From NCBI GenBank assembly GCA_017512555.1, contig JAFWFE010000045.1, positions 62,001 to 126,000 on the forward strand: 64,000 nt of DNA. The letters are read 5' to 3'. This DNA is from Solobacterium sp. (GTDB lineage Bacteria > Bacillota_I > Bacilli_A > Erysipelotrichales > Erysipelotrichaceae). Shown here one piece after another: positions 2,928 to 32,362 of this stretch. The first letter of the stretch is position 1. The number at the start of each line of letters is the position of its first letter. The notes under the pieces were generated by a model. It made no database searches. It saw only the letters and a program-made list of their open reading frames with translations, and was not told where the DNA came from. Both the position numbers and the translations under genes were made by a program.

Positions 2928-4811
2928 ATGAATCTGAAAGATCGGTTAATCGCGAAAATCCGTGAAGAGTTCCTGCAGACGACAGAGACACTCTGGAATA
3001 ATGAAATACGTGCGAATCTTTTTACTGCGCGCGCAATGCTGGTCACCGCAGGATTAACCGTACTATTCTGGATCTTATCCAAACTGGGTGTATTTTCCAT
3101 CAGTAATTCCCAGATCACCTGGCTTGTATTTCAGGCCGTACTGGAACTGATTATTCCTGCAGGAATCTGTATCTGGCTGAAAGGAGAAAGAAAGTGGCTG
3201 AAACTGCTTATGCTTTCCCTGTACACGCTTGTATTGGCAAGGATCGAGATGGTACTGACCCACAATATGGTACTCAGTATGGTCTTCCCGGTACTGATTT
3301 CCATCCGTTACTATTCCCGTACAATTACATCCTCTGTCGGAATCCTGACGATCCTGCTCACATTCATCTCGAATTACTTATCCATCATTTTTCATCTTGG
3401 AAGAATCGATATGAATATGGTTACTCTTCCTGCCGGTACCGTACTGCAGTTTACGGATACCGCTGTCCTCAGAGAAATCGTCATGAGCCAGGGAGTGATT
3501 GATTATCATCAGCACTGGCTGTATTCCCTGAGTAACAGTTATATTCCCAAACTGATCATGTTCAGCCTGATCATCTATGTATGTACAGAAATCGCAGGCA
3601 GGGGAAGAGAAGCCATCTTTGAACAGCAGAAAGAAACGAAAGATGCTGAACGTCTGGCTACAGAGTTACACTTGGCCAAGACCATACAATCCAGCATGCT
3701 GCCGGAAATCTTCCCGCCGTTTCCCGAACATCAGGAATTTGATGTCTATGCCAGTATGCGTACTGCCAGGGAAGTAGGAGGAGACTTCTATGATTTCTAT
3801 ATGATCGATGATGATCATATGGCCATGCTGGTTGCTGATGTATCCGGAAAGGGTATTCCTGCCGCAATGTTCATGATGGCATCCAAGATCATGATCAACA
3901 ATATGTCATTACTTAATGAACCGGATCCGGCAAGAATCCTGGAAATGGTCAATCAGGAGATTGCCCCCAAGAATACCGCGGAGATGTTTGTGACTGTATG
4001 GCTGGGAATCCTGGAAATCTCCACCGGAAAACTCACCGCGACCAATGCCGGTCATGAATATCCGTTTATCCGTCAGAACGGTAAATTTGATATTTTTAAG
4101 GAAAAACACGGATTTGTACTTGGTGGGATGGAAAACACCAAGTATCAGAATTATGAGATACAACTGGAACCTGGTGACGCGGTATTTGTGTATACCGACG
4201 GTGTCACGGAAGCGAAAAACAAAGAGGGAGATCAATTCGGTATTGAGCGTCTTGAAGAAGCCCTGAATGATTCTCCGGAACTTCCTGTATCCGGAATCAT
4301 TAACCATGTCAGTGAAAAACTGGATAAGTTTGTGAATAATGAGGAACAGTTTGATGATATAACGATGGTTATTCTTTCTTATAACGGAGTGACGAATATG
4401 AATAAGTTGACAGTAGAAGCGATGATTGAAAACATCCCGGAAGTGACTGCTTTTGTGGAGTCTAAACTGGAAGAAATCGATTGTCCGCCCAAGATTCAGA
4501 ATCAGATCGATATAGCGATCGACGAACTATTCAGTAATATTGCCAAGTATGCCTATACACCGGATACCGGACCGGCTACGGTAAAAGTAGAAGTCGAAAA
4601 GGATCCTCTGGCCGTTATCATTACATTTATTGATCACGGACAGCCGTATGATCCGCTGACTTCGGAGAATCCGAATCTATCTCTGCCTGCAGAAAAACGG
4701 GAGATCGGAGGATTAGGTATCTATCTAGTGAAAAAGACCATGGATGATATTGTCTATGAATATAAGAACGGACAAAACATCCTCAGAATAAAGAAAGAAA
4801 TACAGGTATAA
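2928..4811 (+). CDS. Membrane PP2C (SpoIIE-like) phosphatase fused to an RsbW-like HATPase domain
   Basis: A 627-residue fusion. Residues about 30-225 carry some six hydrophobic membrane segments. A short helical linker follows (to about 245). A PPM/SpoIIE phosphatase domain spans about 250-480, with the metal motifs REVGGDFYDFY and ADVSGKGIPAAMFM and the late motif FDDITMVIL. Residues about 491-627 form an anti-sigma-kinase-type HATPase with an N box (AIDELFSNIAKYA) and G boxes (DHGQPYDP and GGLGIYLV). The phosphatase would reactivate a STAS antagonist and the kinase domain would phosphorylate it, so opposing activities sit on one chain. An in-frame ATG at 4398 has its own GGAG 8 bases upstream. 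The true start at 2928 follows AAAGGA. Confidence 0.92.
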   Translation: MNLKDRLIAKIREEFLQTTETLWNNEIRANLFTARAMLVTAGLTVLFWILSKLGVFSISNSQITWLVFQAVLELIIPAGICIWLKGERKWLKLLMLSLYTLVLARIEMVLTHNMVLSMVFPVLISIRYYSRTITSSVGILTILLTFISNYLSIIFHLGRIDMNMVTLPAGTVLQFTDTAVLREIVMSQGVIDYHQHWLYSLSNSYIPKLIMFSLIIYVCTEIAGRGREAIFEQQKETKDAERLATELHLAKTIQSSMLPEIFPPFPEHQEFDVYASMRTAREVGGDFYDFYMIDDDHMAMLVADVSGKGIPAAMFMMASKIMINNMSLLNEPDPARILEMVNQEIAPKNTAEMFVTVWLGILEISTGKLTATNAGHEYPFIRQNGKFDIFKEKHGFVLGGMENTKYQNYEIQLEPGDAVFVYTDGVTEAKNKEGDQFGIERLEEALNDSPELPVSGIINHVSEKLDKFVNNEEQFDDITMVILSYNGVTNMNKLTVEAMIENIPEVTAFVESKLEEIDCPPKIQNQIDIAIDELFSNIAKYAYTPDTGPATVKVEVEKDPLAVIITFIDHGQPYDPLTSENPNLSLPAEKREIGGLGIYLVKKTMDDIVYEYKNGQNILRIKKEIQV

Positions 4812-4867: not shown

Positions 4868-6046
4868 ATGGAATATATCGATGCTGAAAAACTAGAAGAT
4901 CATGTAGTCATAGCGCTGAAGGGACATATCGATTCTGCCAATGCCGAACAGGTAGAGAACGAGATCAACACATTCCGTACAGGTTGTGAACAACTGCCGG
5001 TGACGATCAACGCACAGGAACTGGAATATATCTCCAGTGCCGGTCTTCGTATACTGCTCCGTCTGAAAAAATCCACGGATATCAAGATTGAGAATGTTTC
5101 CAGTGAAGTATATGACGTATTGGAAATGACAGGATTTACCGAGATGATGGAAGTTCATAAGGCTTACCGTCAGCTATCGGTAGAGAATTGCGAAGTGATC
5201 GGACAGGGTGCCAACGGTAAGGTGTACCGTATTGATCCGGATACCATCGTCAAGGTATACCATGACCCGGATGCTTTGCCGGAGATTCAGCGAGAAAGAG
5301 AATTAGCCAGAACTGCTCTGATTCTGGGAATTCCTACAGCGATACCCTATGATGTCGTTAAAGTAGGAGATTGTTACGGATCTGTATTTGAACTGCTGAA
5401 CGCGAAATCCTTTGCCCAGCTGTTGAAAGAAGATCCTTCCAAAATCGATCAGATCGCGGAGATGTCTGTTGACCTGTTGAAGAAGATCCATGGTACATTG
5501 GTCAAACCGGATGCCATGCCGGATATGAGGGAAGTCGCTTTGAACTGGGCTGCATTCATGAAAGACTATCTTCCGGAAGAAGAGGCGCAGAAACTCTATC
5601 GATTAGTGGATGAAGTCCCTCAGGATCTGCATATGCTCCACGGGGATTACCATATCAAGAATGTCATGTTACAGAATGATGAAGTCCTGTTGATCGATAT
5701 GGATACACTATGTACGGGACATCCGATCTTCGAATTCGCCTCCGCCTTTAACGCCTATCAGGGCTTCAGTCTGTTTGATCACGAACAGATTGAGCGCTTC
5801 CTCGGTATATCTTATGAGACCGGTGCACAGATGTGGGATAAACTGCTTCACCTGTATTTCGCCGATAAATCCGAAGAAGAAATACAGCAGATCGCGGATA
5901 AGGCAAAACTAATTGGCTGTACCAGGATCATGCGCCGCGCAATACGCCGGAAAGCATTAGAGACAGAGGAAGGTAAAGCTTCTGTAGAACAGTATAAAAA
6001 CCTGATTATTGAGCTTGTAAGAAAGATCGATACACTGCTTTATTAA
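4868..6046 (+). CDS. STAS domain fused to an aminoglycoside-phosphotransferase-like kinase
   Basis: A 392-residue two-domain protein. Residues about 1-95 are a second STAS domain, again with the phosphorylation segment EYISSAGLRILL. Residues about 105-390 are an APH/choline-kinase-fold domain. It has a glycine-rich loop (GQGANGKVYRI), an ATP-binding lysine (IVKVY), the catalytic loop HGDYHIKN (near residue 258) and the metal-binding LIDMDT. The catalytic residues look intact, so it is probably an active small-molecule or protein kinase. The ribosome-binding site is GGAGG. It is 56 bases after the PP2C/HATPase gene, with the same direction and no terminator between. The substrate cannot be told from sequence; antibiotic resistance is not implied. 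Confidence 0.88.
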   Translation: MEYIDAEKLEDHVVIALKGHIDSANAEQVENEINTFRTGCEQLPVTINAQELEYISSAGLRILLRLKKSTDIKIENVSSEVYDVLEMTGFTEMMEVHKAYRQLSVENCEVIGQGANGKVYRIDPDTIVKVYHDPDALPEIQRERELARTALILGIPTAIPYDVVKVGDCYGSVFELLNAKSFAQLLKEDPSKIDQIAEMSVDLLKKIHGTLVKPDAMPDMREVALNWAAFMKDYLPEEEAQKLYRLVDEVPQDLHMLHGDYHIKNVMLQNDEVLLIDMDTLCTGHPIFEFASAFNAYQGFSLFDHEQIERFLGISYETGAQMWDKLLHLYFADKSEEEIQQIADKAKLIGCTRIMRRAIRRKALETEEGKASVEQYKNLIIELVRKIDTLLY

Positions 6047-6123: not shown

Positions 6124-6147
6124 GGAATGGTAGGAGAGTAGAAAAGT

Positions 6148-6705
6148 ATGATTATTGTTAATGATTTGAAACCAGGCACAACTTTTGAATATGAGGATGG
6201 TATCTTTACCGTTCTGAATATCGAACACAATAAAACAGCTATGCGTCAGATGATCGTTAAGGTTAAAGTTAAGAATCTTCGCACTGGTGTTATTAATGAA
6301 ATATCCTTTACCGGTGGTGACAAGGTAGAACAGGCACACATTGAAAAGAAAGAAATGCAGTATCTGTACGATGATGGTGAATCACTGGTATTCATGGATA
6401 ACAGTACCTATGAACAGATTGAGATACCCAAGACACGCCTGGAATGGGAAATGCAGTTCATGAAACCAAACGATAACGTCAATATTACGATGTATGAACA
6501 GGAAGTCCTCGGTGTTATTCTTCCTGATAAAGTAGAACTGCAGATCGTTGAATGTGAACCAGCAGTTAAAGGAGATACTGCTACTTCCGCAACCAAAAAT
6601 GCGAAGTTAGAGACAGGTCTGGATATTCGTGTTCCGTTATTTATTCAAAACGGAGAAATCGTGCTTATTTCCACAGCAGACGGCAAATACTCCGGCAGAG
6701 CATAA
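6148..6705 (+). CDS. efp: Elongation factor P with atypical tip loop
   Basis: A 185-residue, full-length EF-P with KOW-like, OB and C-terminal domains. It aligns without gaps to typical EF-P (DNSTYEQIE, the VKGDTAT segment, SGRA C-terminus). EF-P binds between the P and E sites and rescues ribosomes stalled at polyproline. The tip loop that normally reads KPGKG, with a modified Lys at residue 32, reads KTAMR here: residue 32 is Met (codon at 6241) and the PGKG turn is lost. Everything else looks like a normal, working EF-P. The next gene starts 9 bases downstream. Confidence 0.96.
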   Translation: MIIVNDLKPGTTFEYEDGIFTVLNIEHNKTAMRQMIVKVKVKNLRTGVINEISFTGGDKVEQAHIEKKEMQYLYDDGESLVFMDNSTYEQIEIPKTRLEWEMQFMKPNDNVNITMYEQEVLGVILPDKVELQIVECEPAVKGDTATSATKNAKLETGLDIRVPLFIQNGEIVLISTADGKYSGRA

Positions 6706-6714
6706 TATACAGCT

Positions 6715-8676
6715 ATGACGGACGCAGAAAAGAATACGGAAATTAAGACGGAAACAACCTCTTCTGAAGCAGTAAAAGAAGAGGTTTCTTCAACGTCTAA
6801 ACCAAGAAGAAGAAAAAAAGCATCTCCTGAACAGGAGAATCTTTCTGCTGAAGAAAAACCCGTCAGAAAAACACGAAAAACAACCAGAAAAACAGAGACA
6901 CCTGCAACAGAAGAACCAAACAAGAAAACAACACGGAAAAGAAAAACCGTAACAGAAGATCGTACGGAAGAAAAACCGAAAACCCGCAGAACCAGAAAGA
7001 AGAAAGCGGAAGAAGAAGTACCGGCTGAAGTAAAGGTTACCTGGCTTACGGAAGAGGCAGTAATTGATAAAGTCAAAGCGGATGATCCTGTAGTTACTGA
7101 ACCTGTGACAGAAACTGCAGAAGTCATTGCAGAAGAAATCATCACCGGTGAAACTGCCGCGGAAGAAACTCCGGCAGAGATTATTGAAGCTCTTCCCGAA
7201 TCGGCGAATACTCCGGTAAATGAAGAAATGCCGGCTGATACTCCGGAAGAAACCATCAACAGTGAGGTTGTACCGGAAGAAGTAACGGAAGAAACGGCAG
7301 ATTCTACGGAGATCACGGAAGAAGTTATCCCTGTTGATGAGAATAAGCCGCTGGAAAGTGCAATCCCGGAAAAAGAACCTGAAGCGTCTGATGAGGAAGT
7401 GACTCCGGCAGTAACAGAAGAACATCCTGAGCAGACAGAAATTTCGGATATTCCTGAGACTCCTGCTGAAGAAGCACCGGAAACTGTCATTTCAGAAACA
7501 CATGAACTACCGGAAGGGCAGGATGAGATTGAATCTCCTGAGGTAACAGAAACGGAAGAAACAAGTGAAACTCCGAAAACTGTTGAACAGGAACCAGAAG
7601 AAGCTTCTTCAGAAAATGCGGAAAACCCTGAGGAAAGTACGGAAGAAGATACTGTTCCGGAAACGGAAGAAACTTCGGAAGAAATAACCGAAGAAGTGAA
7701 GCAGGAAGAACCGGAAACTGACGAAGCGGAATCCGAGGAGACGACTGAAGATCAGATAACAGATTCTCCGGCAGAGAAAACAGATTCTACAGAAGTAAGT
7801 GAGGAAGATGTCATTGTTGCTGAGGAGAAAAATCCGCAGGACAGTGAACTCACAGAGAATGAACCGGAACCGGTGAGCACGGAAGATACTCCGGAAGAAA
7901 TCAAAACAGAGAAACCGGCAGAATTATTCCCTGAACTGAAGAAGAAATCCTTCTTCAAACGGAAGAAAACCGAAGATACCATCCAGCTGGATATTACGAA
8001 GATCAACGATGAATCGATCGCAATTAAAAATGTACCGACCAATGATTCCTCACTGATTCTGATTACCAAGTTATCACTCCCGTTATGGAGGATGATCTTC
8101 ATGCCAATCTGGACAGTAAACAGATTCAAGGAGGAGAGTAAGACTTCTTATCCGTATTCCTGGTGGAGTCTGATCATCAAGTGGTCTTTAATAGGTCTCG
8201 GCTTCGCCATGGTATTCCACAAGGTATTCAACCTTGATCCGTTCAGTTACGCAAGGATGAACTTCACGGATGCGGCCTGGCTGTGGATGCGTGTATTCGG
8301 TACAGGAATCGTTACAGAGTTATTCATCTTATTGCTGATCACTGTTGTCTATCACATGTTTGACAAGACGATCATGTTAAAACACGTGATGTTGATGCAG
8401 AATACTCCGAATATCCTGATCGGGCTGTTTATCGGCTTGAGTTTGATCACCATGAGGTATCATCCGTATGTTGGTACAGTTCTGCTGCTTGGGTCAATCA
8501 CTACTGCAGTGAAGCTTCATGACAACTGTTATGTACATACAGAGAATATCCCGGACTGGCTCAGAACACTGACGATCTTCATCAGTTATTCGATCGGAGC
8601 TCTGTGTATCATGTATTTCATCCATCTGTTTGGACAAGATATGATCCTGATCTTCAGGGCAATCTTTAACTTATAG
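6715..8676 (+). CDS. Glu/Thr-rich low-complexity protein with C-terminal multi-pass membrane domain
   Basis: A 653-residue protein of unknown function. Residues about 20-105 are rich in Lys/Arg (KPRRRKK, KTRRTRKKK). About 105-400 are a long, strongly acidic low-complexity region full of TEE/PEE/EET units. About 405-430 are basic again (LKKKSFFKRKK). The last 200 residues carry about five hydrophobic segments and resemble YIP1-like membrane domains only in general layout. There is no signal peptide, so the charged region is probably cytoplasmic. No ribosome-binding site is visible; the ATG lies 9 bases after the efp stop, suggesting coupling. It could be a membrane-tethered scaffold, but that is a guess. 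Confidence 0.75.
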   Translation: MTDAEKNTEIKTETTSSEAVKEEVSSTSKPRRRKKASPEQENLSAEEKPVRKTRKTTRKTETPATEEPNKKTTRKRKTVTEDRTEEKPKTRRTRKKKAEEEVPAEVKVTWLTEEAVIDKVKADDPVVTEPVTETAEVIAEEIITGETAAEETPAEIIEALPESANTPVNEEMPADTPEETINSEVVPEEVTEETADSTEITEEVIPVDENKPLESAIPEKEPEASDEEVTPAVTEEHPEQTEISDIPETPAEEAPETVISETHELPEGQDEIESPEVTETEETSETPKTVEQEPEEASSENAENPEESTEEDTVPETEETSEEITEEVKQEEPETDEAESEETTEDQITDSPAEKTDSTEVSEEDVIVAEEKNPQDSELTENEPEPVSTEDTPEEIKTEKPAELFPELKKKSFFKRKKTEDTIQLDITKINDESIAIKNVPTNDSSLILITKLSLPLWRMIFMPIWTVNRFKEESKTSYPYSWWSLIIKWSLIGLGFAMVFHKVFNLDPFSYARMNFTDAAWLWMRVFGTGIVTELFILLLITVVYHMFDKTIMLKHVMLMQNTPNILIGLFIGLSLITMRYHPYVGTVLLLGSITTAVKLHDNCYVHTENIPDWLRTLTIFISYSIGALCIMYFIHLFGQDMILIFRAIFNL

Positions 8677-8884: not shown

Positions 8885-9475
8885 ATGCAAGACTCAAGAG
8901 TTAAACTACTGACAAAAATCGCTGTATTAGGCACAATATCCTTTATCCTGATGGCATTTGATTTTCCAATCCCCTTGATCCCGGTCTTCTATAAAATTGA
9001 TTTCAGTGAAGTGTTTATTCTGATCGGAGGGTTTGCGTTAGGACCTATGCCCGCAGCAGCGATTGAAGCACTCAAGGTTATACTTAAGCTCATGATCAAG
9101 GGAACAGATACAGCCTATGTAGGAGATATCGCAAACTTTATCATCGGATGTGCGATGGTGATCCCGGCATCCCTGATCTATCACCGCAACAAAACACGTA
9201 AAGGAGCTATTACCGGGATGATTGCCGGTATATTGGTTATGACGTTAGTCGGTGTAATCGTGAATTACTTTGTTTTGCTACCGGCATATTCTTATTTCTA
9301 TCATCTTCCCATGGATAAACTAATTGGTATGGGAAGTGCGCTGATTCCTCTGATCAAGGACAAGCTGACTTTTGTCTTACTGGCAACAACACCGTTTAAT
9401 CTCATCAAAGGATTTCTGGTCAGCCTGATTACCATGTTGGTCTATAAGAGGGTATCACCGTTACTGCACCGGTAG
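8885..9475 (+). CDS. ribU: RibU, riboflavin-specific S component of an ECF transporter
   Basis: A 196-residue integral membrane protein with about six hydrophobic segments. It has the S-component layout, including the N-terminal AVLGTISFILMAFDFPIPLIP and the FALGPMPAA segment near residue 57 typical of ECF S components. The ribosome-binding site is TAGGAGGT. Identification as the riboflavin protein rests on both the family look and the FMN riboswitch directly upstream. It needs the shared ECF ATPases and T subunit, which are not in this window. Expression should fall when FMN is plentiful. Confidence 0.93.
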   Translation: MQDSRVKLLTKIAVLGTISFILMAFDFPIPLIPVFYKIDFSEVFILIGGFALGPMPAAAIEALKVILKLMIKGTDTAYVGDIANFIIGCAMVIPASLIYHRNKTRKGAITGMIAGILVMTLVGVIVNYFVLLPAYSYFYHLPMDKLIGMGSALIPLIKDKLTFVLLATTPFNLIKGFLVSLITMLVYKRVSPLLHR

Positions 9476-9547
9476 TTTGTTACGTTTAAATGAGGTATAG
9501 CATTCTGGTATTCCGATGTTTATTATGCGTTAACCATATCGTAACTA

Positions 9548-9556
9548 TGTTATAAT
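9548..9556 (+). promoter_or_regulatory. Extended -10 promoter for the 9581 operon
   Basis: TGTTATAAT is an extended -10 (TGN plus a perfect TATAAT at 9551-9556), 24 bases before the ATG at 9581. The -35 region is weak (TTAACC at 9530). Confidence 0.55.
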
Positions 9557-9580
9557 AATTGCATTAATGGAGATGGCAAT

Positions 9581-10561
9581 ATGACAAAATACTCACGTAC
9601 ATCGAAATACGAAGAACTCCGCAACAAACTTCAGAATGATGCTGAAGAAGAAATAAGAAGCAGAGAATTATCCTCTTTTGAAGCCAGACTGAACCAGATC
9701 AATAGTAGTAACTTTGAGAATAAAGGGGAGTACAATGCGGAAGATCACGATCCTCTGCATGCCCGTCATCAGCAGTATCTGCAGAATGCGCAGGCTCAGG
9801 AGCCTTCTTTCCGTGAGCCTTCACGTCCTTTGGATTATGGTCTGCAGAACTCTTTGTTCGGTAAGAATGAGAACTATAACTCATCTTTTAACAATGAGTA
9901 CCTGGATGAGTATCTCAACGAAGTTAAACAATACAACATCGATAACGGGAATGCGTTCAGTACAGATACAGATTTGAATATTCTGCAGTCTTTAAAAGGA
10001 CAGCCTGAACCGAAGAAGCCCGTTGCTCCGTCAAAGCCATATCCCGCAACCACAACCCAGAATACGATGAACTACATTCCGACGGTCAATCCTCCGCGAC
10101 CTCAGCAGGCCGTAAAGGAAGAAAAGAAACGGAATGATACGACCGATCTGTTATTCTTCCCTCCGAAAGAGAAAGACTCTTTTGAGGAGTATATCAATAA
10201 CAAGCAGGAAGTTGCTCCGCGTCCCGCAAATACTGCCACAATGACCAGAGAAGACATCGCTGCCGAAGTCAAGAATCTGATCAACCAGCAGGAAGAACCG
10301 GTAGTATCTACCGGTAAGACAAAAGAGAACGCGGTAGAGAAGAAAGATTCCGGTTATGATACAAGACAGCAGTTACTGAATGAAACGACACAGATGCGTG
10401 CCCAGCTGGATGATTATGAAGATAATCTTACTGCTGTCAGTGACCGTATGCAGAAGACCAATCGTATTCTTAACGGGGTTCTGATCGTCTTTATTATTAC
10501 TTTATCGATTATGTTATTGATCGTTCTCTATTGGATCTTAAATGCCAGAGGTATACTGTAA
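9581..10561 (+). CDS. Tail-anchored protein of unknown function
   Basis: A 326-residue protein that I do not recognise. The N-terminal 60 residues are charged and predicted helical. Residues about 60-250 are polar, Asn/Gln/Pro-rich and probably disordered. A short coiled-coil-like stretch (TTQMRAQLDDYEDNLTAVSD) precedes a single C-terminal membrane segment (VLIVFIITLSIMLLIVLYWI). There is no signal peptide, so most of the chain is predicted to face the cytoplasm. The ribosome-binding site is GGAGAT. Its stop codon overlaps the cmk start by one base (TAATG), so it is cotranscribed with cmk-der-gpsA. Confidence 0.8.
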   Translation: MTKYSRTSKYEELRNKLQNDAEEEIRSRELSSFEARLNQINSSNFENKGEYNAEDHDPLHARHQQYLQNAQAQEPSFREPSRPLDYGLQNSLFGKNENYNSSFNNEYLDEYLNEVKQYNIDNGNAFSTDTDLNILQSLKGQPEPKKPVAPSKPYPATTTQNTMNYIPTVNPPRPQQAVKEEKKRNDTTDLLFFPPKEKDSFEEYINNKQEVAPRPANTATMTREDIAAEVKNLINQQEEPVVSTGKTKENAVEKKDSGYDTRQQLLNETTQMRAQLDDYEDNLTAVSDRMQKTNRILNGVLIVFIITLSIMLLIVLYWILNARGIL

Positions 10562-11232
10562 TGAAAATCAATATTGCTGTAGATGGCCCCAGTGCTGCCG
10601 GTAAAAGCACAATATCAAAAATCGTATGTAATACGCTGAATTATGTTCATCTGGATACTGGTGCCATGTACCGCTGTACTGCGTACAAGGCATTGAAGCA
10701 GGGCATCTCTCTTGAGGATGAGGAAGCGGTATGCAAGATGCTGGAGGATACAGAGATCGTTCTTACTCCGGACGGAAAAGTATTCCTGGATCAGGAAGAT
10801 GTCTCTCTGGCAATCCGTGAGGATGCTGTAAGCATGGCTGCGAGTAATGTCTCCAAGCTTCCCAAAGTCCGTGAAGATCTTGTCAAACGTCAGCAGGAAA
10901 TGGCCAAAGACAAAGGATTTGTCATGGATGGCAGAGATATCGGTACAGTTGTACTGAAAGATGCTGAACTGAAGATCTATCTCACCGCATCCGTAGAAGC
11001 CAGGGCACTGCGCAGGTATAAACAGAACCAGGAACAGGGTGTTACGCTCCAGGATATCCACGTGATCGAAAAGGAAATCGCAGAAAGAGATTACCAGGAT
11101 ATGCATCGGGAACATTCACCGTTAAGACAAGCAGAAGATGCTGTAGTCATCGACAGCTCAGATATGACTATCGATGAAGTTGTTGCGGAAATTCTCCGTC
11201 TTGTCGATCAGGTGATTGAGGCAAATCAATGA
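10561..11232 (+). CDS. cmk: Cytidylate kinase
   Basis: A 223-residue (d)CMP kinase. It has the P-loop [10 protein letters not shown] at residues about 8-17, the [10 protein letters not shown] motif and the LID region [13 protein letters not shown]. It phosphorylates CMP and dCMP with ATP in pyrimidine salvage and nucleotide supply. I chose ATG 10561 rather than an upstream in-frame ATG because [10 protein letters not shown] is the standard N-terminus and the codon is coupled to the previous stop. It overlaps the der start by 4 bases (ATGA). The cmk-der pairing is common in Bacillota. Confidence 0.97.
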
Positions 11233-12539
11233 GTGTAGGAACCATTGCAATCGTTGGCAGACCTAATGTAGGTAAATCAACGATTTTTAATCGCATTATC
11301 GGCGAAAGAAGATCCATAGTAGAAGATAGTCCCGGCGTTACCAGAGACCGTATTTACGCGTCTTCTGAGTGGCTGGGAACACAATTCAGGATCATCGATA
11401 CCGGTGGTATACAGATGGCAGATCAGCCTTACCAGGTTGAAATCAAAGCTCAGGTGCAGATAGCTTTGGAAGAGGCAGATGTCATCGTTTTTGTGGTGAA
11501 CGGAGCAGAGGGAATGACGGAAGATGACCGCTATATTGCAGGTCTTCTCCACCGTAACAACAAACCGGTGATCCTGGCTGTAAATATGATCGATGATACT
11601 TCACGGATCCCGCTTATCTATGAGTTCTATTCCTTAGGTGTAGGAGAACCGGTTGCTTGCTCCGGTGTTCATGGCATAGGTATCGGAGATATCCTGGATG
11701 AATGTGTCAAACACTTCCCGGAAGAGAATGAAGAAGAACCGGAAGGACTGAAGATTGCGGTGATCGGAGAACCAAACGTTGGCAAGTCCTCACTGGTCAA
11801 TGCGATCCTCAAGGAAGAACGTTCCATCGTTTCTAACGAACAGGGAACCACCAGAGACGCTGTAGATACATCCTTTGTATACGAAGACAGACCATACGTT
11901 ATCATCGATACAGCAGGCATACGCAAACGCGGCAAAGTCTATGAATCCGTGGAAAAGTATTCTGTATTACGTGCCATGTATGCCATTGAGCGCTGTGATG
12001 TCGCATTATTCCTGATCGATGGTGAAAAGGGTATCCGTGAACAAGATAAACATGTGGCAGGATATGCCTCGGAAGCCGGGAAACCAATTGTGATCGTAGT
12101 GAATAAATGGGATCTGGTAGAAAAGGATTCCTATACGATGAATCAGTTTACAGAAACGATCCGGAAAGAATTCGTGTATCTCAGTTATGCGCCGGTCATC
12201 TTCGTTTCCGCAAAAACCAGACAAAGAATCGATCAGATCATTCCTCTGGCCGATCAGGTCTATGAGAATTCCTGCCGCAGAATCATGACGAACGTACTAA
12301 ACGAAGTCATTGCGGATTCACAGGTAACGACTCCGGCTCCGGCAAGAAACGGCAAGAGATTCCGTATCTATTATGCTACCCAGGTAGCAATCCAGCCGCC
12401 GACATTTGTCTTATCGTGCAATGATCCTAAACTCATGCATTTCTCCTACCAGAGATTTATAGAGAACACACTACGTGAAGCATTTGATTTCACCGGCACA
12501 CCGATACGTATTATCGCAAGAAAGAAGATCAGCGAATGA
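11229..12539 (+). CDS. der: Der (EngA), double GTPase in 50S ribosome assembly
   Basis: A 436-residue protein with two consecutive Era-like G domains, the hallmark of Der. The first has G1 GRPNVGKS (about 9-16), DTGG and NMID in the NKxD position. The second has G1 GEPNVGKS (about 180-187), DTAG and NKWD. A C-terminal KH-like domain follows (about 350-436). It acts in maturation of the large ribosomal subunit. It overlaps cmk and gpsA by 4 bases on each side, so the three are translationally coupled. Confidence 0.98.
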
Positions 12540-13531
12540 AAATCACAATCATGGGAACCGGAAGCTGGGGAACAGCTCTGGCACAAGTACTAGCCGATAA
12601 TCATCAGGATGTTCTTTTGTACGGAATCAACCCCGAACAAATCCGGGATATCAATGAAAATCACCGGAATACCGCATTCTTTGAGACACCGATCAATGAA
12701 AATCTTCGTGCTACCGATGATATCTCCTGTGTAAAAGACGCGGATATTGTCCTTCTCGCGGTTCCTTCCCAGGCGATAGAATCTGTTGTGGTCAGCCTCA
12801 AACAGTATCTGACACATCCTGTCATCGTAATCAATGTGGCAAAGGGATTCCATCCCGTAACACACGAACGTCTCAGTGAGATCGTATGCAGAAATATGGA
12901 TGAACATCTGTTAACGGATGTTGTATCCCTGATTGGACCTTCGCATGCGGAAGAAGTCATTCTGCGTCTTCTGACGGCAGTCAACGCTGTATGTATACAC
13001 GAAGAATCCGCAAAAATCGTACAAAACCTGTTTGCCAATGATTATTTCCGTGTCTATACCAATACGGATGAAATCGGTGCGGAAATCGGTGTATCCGTGA
13101 AAAACGTCATGGCTATTGCCAGTGGTATCCTTCATGGACTGGGGCAGGGGGACAATGCCAGAGCGGCTCTGATGACACGTGGTCTTGCGGAAATGACCAG
13201 ATATGGTGTATCCCGGGGCGGCAGACAATCCACATTCCTTGGTCTGGATGGTGTCGGAGATCTGATCGTTACCTGTACATCGTTCCATTCCCGTAACTTC
13301 ATGGCCGGCTACGCCATAGGTAAAGCAGACAGTGCGGAAGAATTCCTGCGCACAAACAAAAAAACCGTGGAAGGCATCGCAGCTTCCAAGGTTCTCTATG
13401 AAGAATCGAAGAAGAATCATATCTCCATGCCGATAACCGAGCAAGTCTATAAGATCTTATACGAAGGGAAGATTCCGTCCCAGGCAATCCACGAACTGAT
13501 GTTAAGAGATCTGAAACCTGAAACGATCTGA
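12536..13531 (+). CDS. gpsA: Glycerol-3-phosphate dehydrogenase [NAD(P)+]
   Basis: A 331-residue enzyme with the N-terminal nucleotide-binding motif [10 protein letters not shown] (about residues 7-16), the GPSHAEEV motif and the catalytic-lysine region [11 protein letters not shown]. It reduces dihydroxyacetone phosphate to sn-glycerol 3-phosphate for phospholipid synthesis. It is the last gene of the 9581-13531 operon and is followed at once by an intrinsic terminator. The glycerol kinase at 35331 would give a second route to the same product. Confidence 0.97.
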
Positions 13532-29531: not shown

Positions 29532-29733
29532 GCTGAGAACAGAAGTAGTATTCCTGCAAGGACAGTACAGAGACTCTGGGGTGGTGGAAACAGAGCTGGG
29601 TAACAGGAGGAAGTCGTCTGGGAGCTGAACATCTGAACGAAGAGTAAGTTGTTCCGTTATGCACGTTACGCAGTCAAGAAGCAAGCAAGGTGGTACCACG
29701 CTTAAATACGCGTCCTTCGTCGGACGTTTTTTT
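29532..29733 (+). ncRNA. T-box riboswitch (Val, specifier GUC) with terminator
   Basis: The T-box sequence AAGGTGGTACCACGC is at 29688-29701. It is followed by a terminator hairpin CGTCC/GGACG with seven T (29711-29733). Aligning this leader with the thrS leader over their shared CTGGGAGCT segment places a GTC (Val) at 29613-29615 exactly where the other has ACC (Thr). Uncharged tRNA-Val should stabilise the antiterminator and switch on valS. Confidence 0.95.
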
Positions 29734-29749
29734 ATGGGAGGAGAAGTAT

Positions 29750-32362
29750 ATGCAGAAGAATCTGGAACCAAAGTATAACTATCATCAGGTGGAAGAGGGG
29801 AAGTATGATCATTGGGTGAAACAAGGCTATTTCACGGCCGGAGACAAGTCCAAGGAACCTTTTACGATCGTAATTCCGCCGCCGAATGTCACCGGTATAT
29901 TACATATCGGACATGCCTGGGATAATGCCCTGCAGGACATCATTTCGCGTTATAAGAAGATGCGTGGATATGACATGTTATACCTGCCCGGTATGGATCA
30001 TGCCGGAATTGCCACACAAGCAAAGGTAGATGCCCGTCTGAAGAGTGAGGGGATCTCCCGCTATGATATCGGACGTGAAAAGTTCCTGGAACGGGCCTGG
30101 GAGTGGAAAGAAGAATACGCCGCTACCATCCGCAAACAGTGGGCGAAGCTGGGAAACAGTCTGGACTATACCAGAGAACGCTTTACCATGGATGAAGGCT
30201 TTAATGATGCCGTCAAGCATGTCTTTGTCTCCCTGTACAACGAAGGTCTGATCTACCGCGGATGGAGAATTATCAACTGGGATCCGGAAGCACGTACAGC
30301 GTTAAGTAATATTGAAGTTTATCACCAGAATATTCCCGGAAAGATGTATTACTTCAACTACAAGGTAGTGGAAACAGAGGATTCCTTTACGGTTGCGACT
30401 ACACGTCCGGAAACCATGTTCGGTGATGTCTGCGTTGTCGTAAACCCTAAGGATGAACGCTTTACTCACCTGATAGGCAAACACGCGATCAATCCCGCAA
30501 ATCACATGCCTCTGCCGATCATCACGGATGAATACGTCGATGTGGAATTCGGTACCGGTGCGATGAAGTGTACACCTGCCCACGATCCCAACGACTATCA
30601 GATTGCGGAAAGACATGGTCTGGAAAAGCCGATCTGTATGAATCCTGACGGTACCATGAACGCTCTGGCAGGGAAGTATGAAGGCATGGACAGATATGAA
30701 TGCCGTGACAAGCTTACTTCGGATATTGAGGCAGAAGGCAACCTGATCAAAATCGAAGATATTGAACACGAAGTCGCACATTCCGAGAGAACACACTGTA
30801 TCGTTGAACCGTATCTGTCCGAACAGTGGTTTGTAAAGATGAAACCTCTGGCACAGGATGTTCTGGATCATCAGAAAGATCCCGACCAGCATATCTATTT
30901 CTATCCGGAACGTTTTGAACGTACATTTGAACAATGGCTGGAGAATATTGAAGACTGGTGTATTTCCCGTCAGTTGTGGTGGGGTCACCGGATTCCGGCC
31001 TGGTACCACAAGGAAACCGGAGAAGTCTACGTTGGTGAGAAAGAACCGGAAGATATTGAAAACTGGACCCAGGATGAAGATGTCCTGGATACCTGGTTCT
31101 CCAGTGCGCTGTGGCCGTTTGCGACCCTGGGATGGCCGGAAGACACGGAAGATTATGAACGTTATTATCCGACAAGCACGATGGTTACCGGTTACGATAT
31201 CATCTTCTTCTGGGTTGCCCGTATGGCTTTCCAGGCAAGACATTTCACTAAGCAGAGACCTTTCAAGGATGTGCTCATCCATGGTCTGATCCGTGACGCC
31301 AAAGGCCAGAAGATGTCCAAATCCCTGGGTAACGGTATTGACCCGATGCAGGTCATTGAAGACTACGGTGTGGATGCGCTGCGTTTCTTCCTGACCACAA
31401 ATAGTACACCAGGACAGGATATGCGTTATATTCCGGAGAAAGTGGAAGCCTCCTGGAACTTTATCAACAAGCTCTGGAATGCCAGCAGATTCGTACTTTT
31501 AAATCTGCCGGATGATTTTGATCCAAAGAGTATCTCTTTCGAAGATCTGACAGAATCCGATATCTGGATCCTGAACAAGCTGAACGAGACAATTGCCCAT
31601 GTCACCCAGAATATGGAAAAGTATGAGTTTGCGTTAGTCGGCAACGAGTTATATTCATTCATCTGGGAAGACTTCTGTAACTGGTATGTGGAATTATCCA
31701 AGGCCAGCCTGAACAGTGATGATATCAAGCTGCAGAAGAGCGCGCAGGGAACCCTGTATATCTGTCTGCTGAATATCCTGAAGCTCCTGCATCCGTTTGT
31801 GCCGTTCGTGACCGAAGAAATCTACCAGACCTTCTGCCATGACCAGGAGAGTCTCTGCCTGGAATCCTGGCCGGAAGTGATCAATGAAGTACCGCAGATC
31901 GATACCTTATCCATGGATCGTCTGATCTCCGTAATCAAGAAGATCCGTGAAGTAAAGATCGTCAGTCATCTGAAGCCAAGCGCACCGCTCGATATCATGA
32001 TCAAGGATCTTGACGGCAACGCTCTGCCGGTGGATCCTGCGCAGGCAAATATGCTGCAGAGAATGGCCAAGGCAACCTGGCTGGATAAGATTGAAGGGGA
32101 CCTGGCAGTTGAAACGGTCTATGCCGGAACATTACTGATTCCTTCTGAAGAACTCCTGGATAAAGAAGCCGAAATCGCGAAACTGAAACAGGAAGAAAAA
32201 CGTCTGAACGGCGAACTGGCAAGAAGCCGCGGTATTCTGAATAATCCTGGTTTCCTGAACAAAGCTCCGCAGGCCAAGATCGATGAAGAGAAGCGCAAAC
32301 AGAGCGATTATGAGAAGCAGCTGAGCGCGGTCATCGAACGTCTGAAAATGCTTGATAAATAA
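29750..32362 (+). CDS. valS: Valine-tRNA ligase
   Basis: An 870-residue class I synthetase with the HIGH motif (LHIGHAWDNA, about residues 46-55), a CP1 editing domain, the KMSKS loop (GQKMSKSLGNG) and a C-terminal coiled coil (about 805-870) that contacts tRNA. It charges tRNA-Val. ATG 29750 follows GGAGGAG and lies just after the T-box terminator; the upstream open frame is leader. Regulation by the T-box is clear from sequence. Confidence 0.98.
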   Translation: MQKNLEPKYNYHQVEEGKYDHWVKQGYFTAGDKSKEPFTIVIPPPNVTGILHIGHAWDNALQDIISRYKKMRGYDMLYLPGMDHAGIATQAKVDARLKSEGISRYDIGREKFLERAWEWKEEYAATIRKQWAKLGNSLDYTRERFTMDEGFNDAVKHVFVSLYNEGLIYRGWRIINWDPEARTALSNIEVYHQNIPGKMYYFNYKVVETEDSFTVATTRPETMFGDVCVVVNPKDERFTHLIGKHAINPANHMPLPIITDEYVDVEFGTGAMKCTPAHDPNDYQIAERHGLEKPICMNPDGTMNALAGKYEGMDRYECRDKLTSDIEAEGNLIKIEDIEHEVAHSERTHCIVEPYLSEQWFVKMKPLAQDVLDHQKDPDQHIYFYPERFERTFEQWLENIEDWCISRQLWWGHRIPAWYHKETGEVYVGEKEPEDIENWTQDEDVLDTWFSSALWPFATLGWPEDTEDYERYYPTSTMVTGYDIIFFWVARMAFQARHFTKQRPFKDVLIHGLIRDAKGQKMSKSLGNGIDPMQVIEDYGVDALRFFLTTNSTPGQDMRYIPEKVEASWNFINKLWNASRFVLLNLPDDFDPKSISFEDLTESDIWILNKLNETIAHVTQNMEKYEFALVGNELYSFIWEDFCNWYVELSKASLNSDDIKLQKSAQGTLYICLLNILKLLHPFVPFVTEEIYQTFCHDQESLCLESWPEVINEVPQIDTLSMDRLISVIKKIREVKIVSHLKPSAPLDIMIKDLDGNALPVDPAQANMLQRMAKATWLDKIEGDLAVETVYAGTLLIPSEELLDKEAEIAKLKQEEKRLNGELARSRGILNNPGFLNKAPQAKIDEEKRKQSDYEKQLSAVIERLKMLDK

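Follow-up and report, generated by a model that had tools for sequence, protein, structure and literature searches.

The window analysed here is a stretch of 64,000 nucleotides from the genome of a Solobacterium-like Erysipelotrichaceae species, a gut bacterium, and it contains a gene for elongation factor P (EF-P) with methionine at the tip of the beta3-beta4 loop. The gene and its surroundings, taken from the open reading frame (ORF) list, from domain searches or directly from the letters, are as follows.

267-2208: genes upstream of efp, presumably of competence type
2611-2910: ORF upstream of efp, presumably STAS-like
2928-4811: SpoIIE phosphatase fused to a histidine-kinase-type ATPase domain (domain search)
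4868-6046: STAS domain fused to an APH-family kinase, just upstream of efp (domain search)
6132..6136, + strand: AGGAG, putative ribosome-binding site of efp (read from the letters)
6148..6705, + strand: efp, elongation factor P of the Met-tip type, labelled EF-P1, 185 amino acids plus stop, coding part 6148-6702 (ORF list)
6232..6252, + strand: beta3-beta4 loop K29-T-A-M-R-Q-M35, the equivalent of E. coli KPGKGQA (read from the letters)
6241..6243, + strand: ATG codon of Met32, in the slot of the modified lysine by gapless alignment to S. aureus EF-P
6244..6246, + strand: codon of Arg33, the basic neighbour of the apex and a proposed substitute contact
6715-8676: ORF of 653 residues immediately downstream of efp; it combines a long low-complexity stretch rich in Glu, Thr and Pro with a hydrophobic C-terminal region and has no match in Pfam
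8885..13531, + strand: conserved downstream neighbourhood of efp (ORF list), whose ORFs we take to be a putative ECF S component, a small ORF, a cytidylate kinase-like gene, a Der/EngA-like GTPase and a GpsA-like gene

The protein is a bona fide EF-P: it scores 230.6 bits on NCBIfam TIGR00038 (efp; cut-off 185.8), and the Pfam domains EFP_N, EFP and Elong-fact-P_C (PF08207, PF01132 and PF09285) are all above cut-off. Its loop codons are AAA ACA GCT ATG CGT CAG ATG (K29 T30 A31 M32 R33 Q34 M35). The phmmer alignment with S. aureus EF-P places TAMR opposite PGKG and Met32 opposite the modified lysine with zero gaps, in agreement with direct reading and with the earlier note. In the AlphaFold model (mean pLDDT 87.6), strands 18-28 and 36-43 enclose a loop of residues 29-35, which has the canonical length of seven and Met32 at its centre. 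Foldseek aligned the model to 6s8z with a TM of 0.92, and the best 50 matches were EF-P, EfpL or IF5A structures or ribosome complexes containing them. The fold and loop length are therefore predicted to be normal.

In the prevailing view the loop tip of EF-P must bear a basic side chain that is long and usually modified, and well-studied EF-Ps do carry lysine or arginine there, as the earlier note stated. Lys-type EF-Ps of Bacillus and Staphylococcus (PGKG; 5-aminopentanol on B. subtilis Lys32) share the fold, three domains and loop length of the window EF-P. They differ in having KPGKGAA where the window EF-P has KTAMRQM; its TAMR offers no modifiable tip lysine, and YnbB is absent here. Arg-type EF-Ps rhamnosylated by EarP (Pseudomonas, Neisseria) likewise lack a proline two residues before the tip, but their tip is arginine and not methionine; the EarP search gave zero matches in 60 genomes and equally zero in the control genomes. 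Arg-tip EF-Ps for which no modification pathway is known (Thermus Arg32, discussed in PMC2821294, and those of Mycoplasma-like genomes) also have a seven-residue loop, but carry arginine at the tip itself (e.g., KTGRQQG, KQGRGQA), whereas the window EF-P has methionine with arginine beside it. EfpL/YeiP of E. coli acts without tip modification, and a basic residue has been proposed to contact the CCA end (PMC11611912). Its loop has two additional residues and bears proline and R33 at the apex, and EfpL co-occurs with EF-P, while the window protein is a sole EF-P with a loop of seven. Membership in EfpL/YeiP was rejected on this loop length and on scores (NF003392, 135.8 against a cut-off of 216; TIGR02178, 118.5 against 264).

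Methionine at the tip has been tabulated before. Among EF-Ps of genomes lacking YjeA/YjeK, 3.4% were reported to have it (2010; PMC2821294); a later survey gave 0.77% of 1166 EF-Ps (2019; PMC6544042), and the residue was mentioned again in 2024 (PMC11611912). The window EF-P belongs to the Met-tip class of the Volkwein 2019 survey: the tip residue is the same, and proline is absent at -2, as it always is with methionine in that survey (PMC6544042). As far as the cited portions extend, these surveys give counts and a tree-based order of appearance; new in the present analysis are the clade, the change of the loop as a block, the sole-copy status and the correlation with partner genes. A functional study of a Met-tip EF-P was not found in the open-access literature searched. 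The possibility that TAMR-type loops are common and already characterised thus holds for their frequency in this clade (see below) and for the tabulation of Met tips (PMC2821294, PMC6544042), but the papers searched gave no functional characterisation.

An independent sister genome encodes a protein 98% identical with the same loop, NKTAMRQ is present in all nearest orthologues among close relatives, and a TAM loop was found in 27/27 close orthologues examined. The codons for Asn, Lys, Thr, Ala, Arg and Gln vary only synonymously among 27 unique TAM-loop genes, a signature of purifying selection; these genes were found by homology, and a pattern scan fixes the loop by design. Scanning named genomes for TAMRQ gave at least 119 stretches among the matches listed, two of which (L103 and L160) were rejected as chance matches inside unrelated proteins. 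At least 117 EF-Ps in named records therefore have TAMRQ, which overturns the uniqueness implied in the earlier note. Nearly all, among the matches listed, bear the name of Erysipelotrichaceae or of one of its genera (Solobacterium, Holdemania, Dielma, Traorella and Erysipelothrix) in their titles; some others come from Bacilli/Firmicutes bins, and one from a bin with the label Mycoplasmataceae; titles were read for all stretches except the last 39.

Fixed differences between 36 Met-tip and 18 Lys-tip EF-Ps fall at positions 28, 30, 31, 32, 33 and 35, plus only 9 and 38 elsewhere, so the remainder of the protein is ordinary, as had been noted. This comparison shows a loop exchanged as a block in a factor otherwise little altered. 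R33 is present in 31 of the 36 Met-tip sequences of the tree sample, and the other five have Ala33 with K34 (TAMAKM), so that position 33 or 34 is basic in every one. K29 is invariant in a 29-sequence alignment, and T30 in all Met-tip loops. The GDT loop of domain III, part of the conserved EF-P body, is present in many members. The Met-tip loop is an old, stable variant common to a whole branch of bacteria.

Loops were also tabulated from genomes sampled across the class, with families labelled f1, f2 and so on (f1 is the family of the window). Family f1 has TAMRQM, with minorities of TARSAM, TAMRGM and TAMAKM; f19 has TAMRQM or TAMAKM, and f8 has TAMRKM or TAMAKM. Loops are TARAA or QGRLS in f2, QGR in f16, and TGR or SGR in f5 (Mycoplasma/Spiroplasma-like small genomes in which efp reads through TGA). 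In the other sampled families PGKG predominates; f9 has SARSA, and part of f17 has SANSM. In full, these non-lysine tips outside the Met clade (L293-L298 and L301-L302) read KSARSAA (Arg, most of f9) and KSANSMA (Asn, part of f17).

On a tree of EF-Ps built without the loop columns, including the 36 Met-tip sequences, one branch (SH-aLRT 94) separates all Met tips from the other sequences. The Met-tip clade sits inside a proline-less clade in which f1, f2, f5, f8, f16 and f19 lie on one side of another branch (SH-aLRT 98), and which includes the Arg-tip EF-Ps of Mycoplasma-like genomes. Four changes account for all tip residues on the tree, on which the Met tip has a single origin. The Met-tip EF-P is the sole EF-P match in at least 11 f1 genomes that are at least 95% complete, and in every f8 and f19 genome whose EF-P was read, so it must serve alone there. 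Two f1 genomes gave other counts: G276 (99% complete) has zero EF-P matches, and G174 has two EF-P matches with zero HVKPGKG.

Gene order downstream of the Met-tip efp is similar in Holdemania filiformis, an Erysipelothrix sp., Dielma fastidiosa and a Firmicutes MAG. In another record (L112), a Xaa-Pro aminopeptidase-like ORF lies directly upstream, and the Met-tip and Lys-type genes probably occupy the same ancestral locus. We take these surroundings to resemble the efp neighbourhood of Bacilli; the Met-tip gene is therefore probably the vertically inherited orthologue, with the PGKG copy as an addition.

A second EF-P, with about 40% identity and the loop KPGKGAA, is encoded in many relatives. 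These PGKG copies form one clade with full support and a long branch, and nearly all of those in the order have GAPSNQ or similar (GAASNQ) in place of the domain III GDT motif (e.g., L199:5982-6536). Seventeen neighbourhoods were fetched (L199-L215; e.g., L204:4053-8013), 16 of which show the gene and its flanks. In these 16, a FabG/YmfI-like reductase gene comes next after the PGKG EF-P gene and shares its strand, a convergent YnbB gene is usually nearby, and a gene for a PnuC-like membrane protein is often upstream. In the window genome (94.7% complete, 100 contigs), PF01132 found only the gene at 6148, and YnbB (PF06838) was not found. A second EF-P, which the earlier note had offered as one option, is thus lacking in this genome as assembled and present in many relatives. 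Two members of the genus have a third, very divergent EF-P-like protein with 23-25% identity (L071, on G027:C151, with the loop PGNE; and G026:C59).

YnbB is required for modification of B. subtilis EF-P Lys32 (PMC5885033). In the order sample, YnbB is present in 31/31 genomes with a PGKG EF-P and in 0/30 without one, leaving out weak matches (E 1e-8 or worse); in the class sample, HVKPGKG occurs in 47/47 genomes with YnbB, and YnbB in 0/140 genomes without HVKPGKG. The co-distribution has a Fisher probability of 2e-15, a value that ignores kinship among genomes and an association that is partly one linked locus. The link persists where several kilobases separate the two genes (G005, G037, G050) and where they lie on different contigs (G044). 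Two genomes from two other families (G103:C10 and G193:C24) have two HVKPGKG matches each, and a YnbB gene lies no more than about 2 kb from one of the two; this arrangement suggests that the EF-P/YnbB cluster moves between lineages.

GsaB is likewise needed for the Lys32 modification in B. subtilis, but it is absent from the genus of the window at E 1e-40, even in genomes with YnbB. 5-Aminopentanol can therefore not be claimed for the PGKG EF-P here. The locus of PGKG EF-P, reductase and YnbB in this genus, without GsaB, is likely an EF-P modification cluster. EpmA had no match above cut-off in 60 genomes, while two control genomes reached the cut-off. YmfI (NF047420) was rejected as a marker in favour of YnbB (PF06838); other reductases outscore the efp-linked ones, and the FabG/YmfI-like family is too broad to read presence or absence from. 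The search of the window genome gave one efp, no EpmA above cut-off, no YnbB, no GsaB at E 1e-40, no call on a YmfI-type reductase, and hence no complete known tip-modifying set (EpmA; YnbB/YmfI/GsaB).

Proline runs are the expected clients of EF-P, and one ORF in the window is of particular relevance.

29690..32362, + strand: valyl-tRNA synthetase-like ORF with PPPNVTG, PPP codons at 29876-29884

We take this ORF to be valyl-tRNA synthetase and its PPP to be the known one. Valyl-tRNA synthetase PPP needs EF-P in other bacteria. The motif was matched in the organism's own genome at C68:91876, in frame as VIPPPNVTG. The proteins of the 64-kb window contain 16 PP and one PPP in 19,534 residues.

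The reading we prefer, at a probability of roughly two in three, is that the window EF-P is a sole, vertically inherited factor that works without any known tip modification and aids peptide bonds to proline. It would belong to an old subfamily in which KTAMRQM supplanted the whole PGKG turn as a unit, would bind the ribosome as other EF-Ps do, and would help proline-containing peptide bonds form; its activity in proline rescue is predicted from the general behaviour of EF-P. The tip would carry no known modification, because no known modification uses an apex methionine and the genome has no complete known modifying set. Met32 would pack near the CCA end of the tRNA, and R33 or K34 would take over the contact that the modified lysine normally makes. 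The basic neighbour of the apex may in this way stand in for that lysine. Among the three options in the earlier note, an unmodified factor with a different tip has the best support. Service to only a subset of stalls is less likely as its sole role, because the genome has no other EF-P and keeps the PPP of valyl-tRNA synthetase.

Loss of general proline rescue is nevertheless the alternative that survives best, although we consider it unlikely. The Met-tip EF-P would then act on a subset of stalls or in another step of translation, and YfmR/YebC2-type factors would make polyproline. In E. coli EF-P, K34M, changes of P32 and G33A each abolished activity (PMC6544042). B. subtilis copes without EF-P through YfmR and YebC2 (PMC11990639), so the presence of a sole EF-P is no proof of a strong role, and some genomes of the family retain an extra PGKG EF-P. 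Against this, dozens of genomes have the Met-tip EF-P as their sole EF-P match, its body is conserved with the GDT loop of domain III in many members, the gene is under purifying selection, and proline pairs persist in the window proteins. Single changes inactivate the E. coli factor, so the natural loop would have to work in a context that they do not reproduce; the two observations can coexist because the natural loop changes all those positions together.

Somewhat less probable again is an enzyme outside the known sets that modifies another loop residue (K29, T30 or R33), leaving the tip still decorated. Novel modifications of EF-P have come to light several times before, and the invariance of K29 and T30 described above is compatible with such an enzyme. 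However, the genome has no complete known modification set, and the conservation of K29 calls for no new enzyme, since Lys-type EF-Ps, which are modified at a different residue, conserve it equally. A second, Lys-tip EF-P hidden in the missing 5% of the assembly is very improbable: other members of the genus do carry such a copy, but a PGKG EF-P query found no fragment beyond the known gene at E values up to 10, YnbB is missing too, and both genes are absent in the close sisters G003, G007, G008, G022 and G033 (94-97% complete). A sequencing or assembly error or a decaying pseudogene, conceivable from one genome in 100 contigs taken by itself, was rejected on conservation, given the identical loop in independent genomes and in at least 117 named-record EF-Ps, the synonymous variation and the intact domains.

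A broader form of the preferred reading, that of a sole, unmodified Met-tip EF-P, is more tentative, and we would put it slightly below an even chance. In many Erysipelotrichaceae and in related small-genome lineages, the subfamily would be the sole EF-P and would promote Pro-Pro bonds through an unmodified, uncharged Met apex with the charge one residue along, while the Lys-tip EF-P, YnbB and the reductase would have been acquired or lost together. That YnbB and the PGKG EF-P co-occur exactly in the order supports a dedicated role for YnbB in EF-P modification outside Bacillus, and comparing genomes of the lineage with and without this pair separates what modification adds. A conserved lineage with methionine at the tip of its only EF-P is a natural test of the basic-tip rule; if the broader reading is true, a long, modified, cationic tip side chain would not be demanded by EF-P chemistry.
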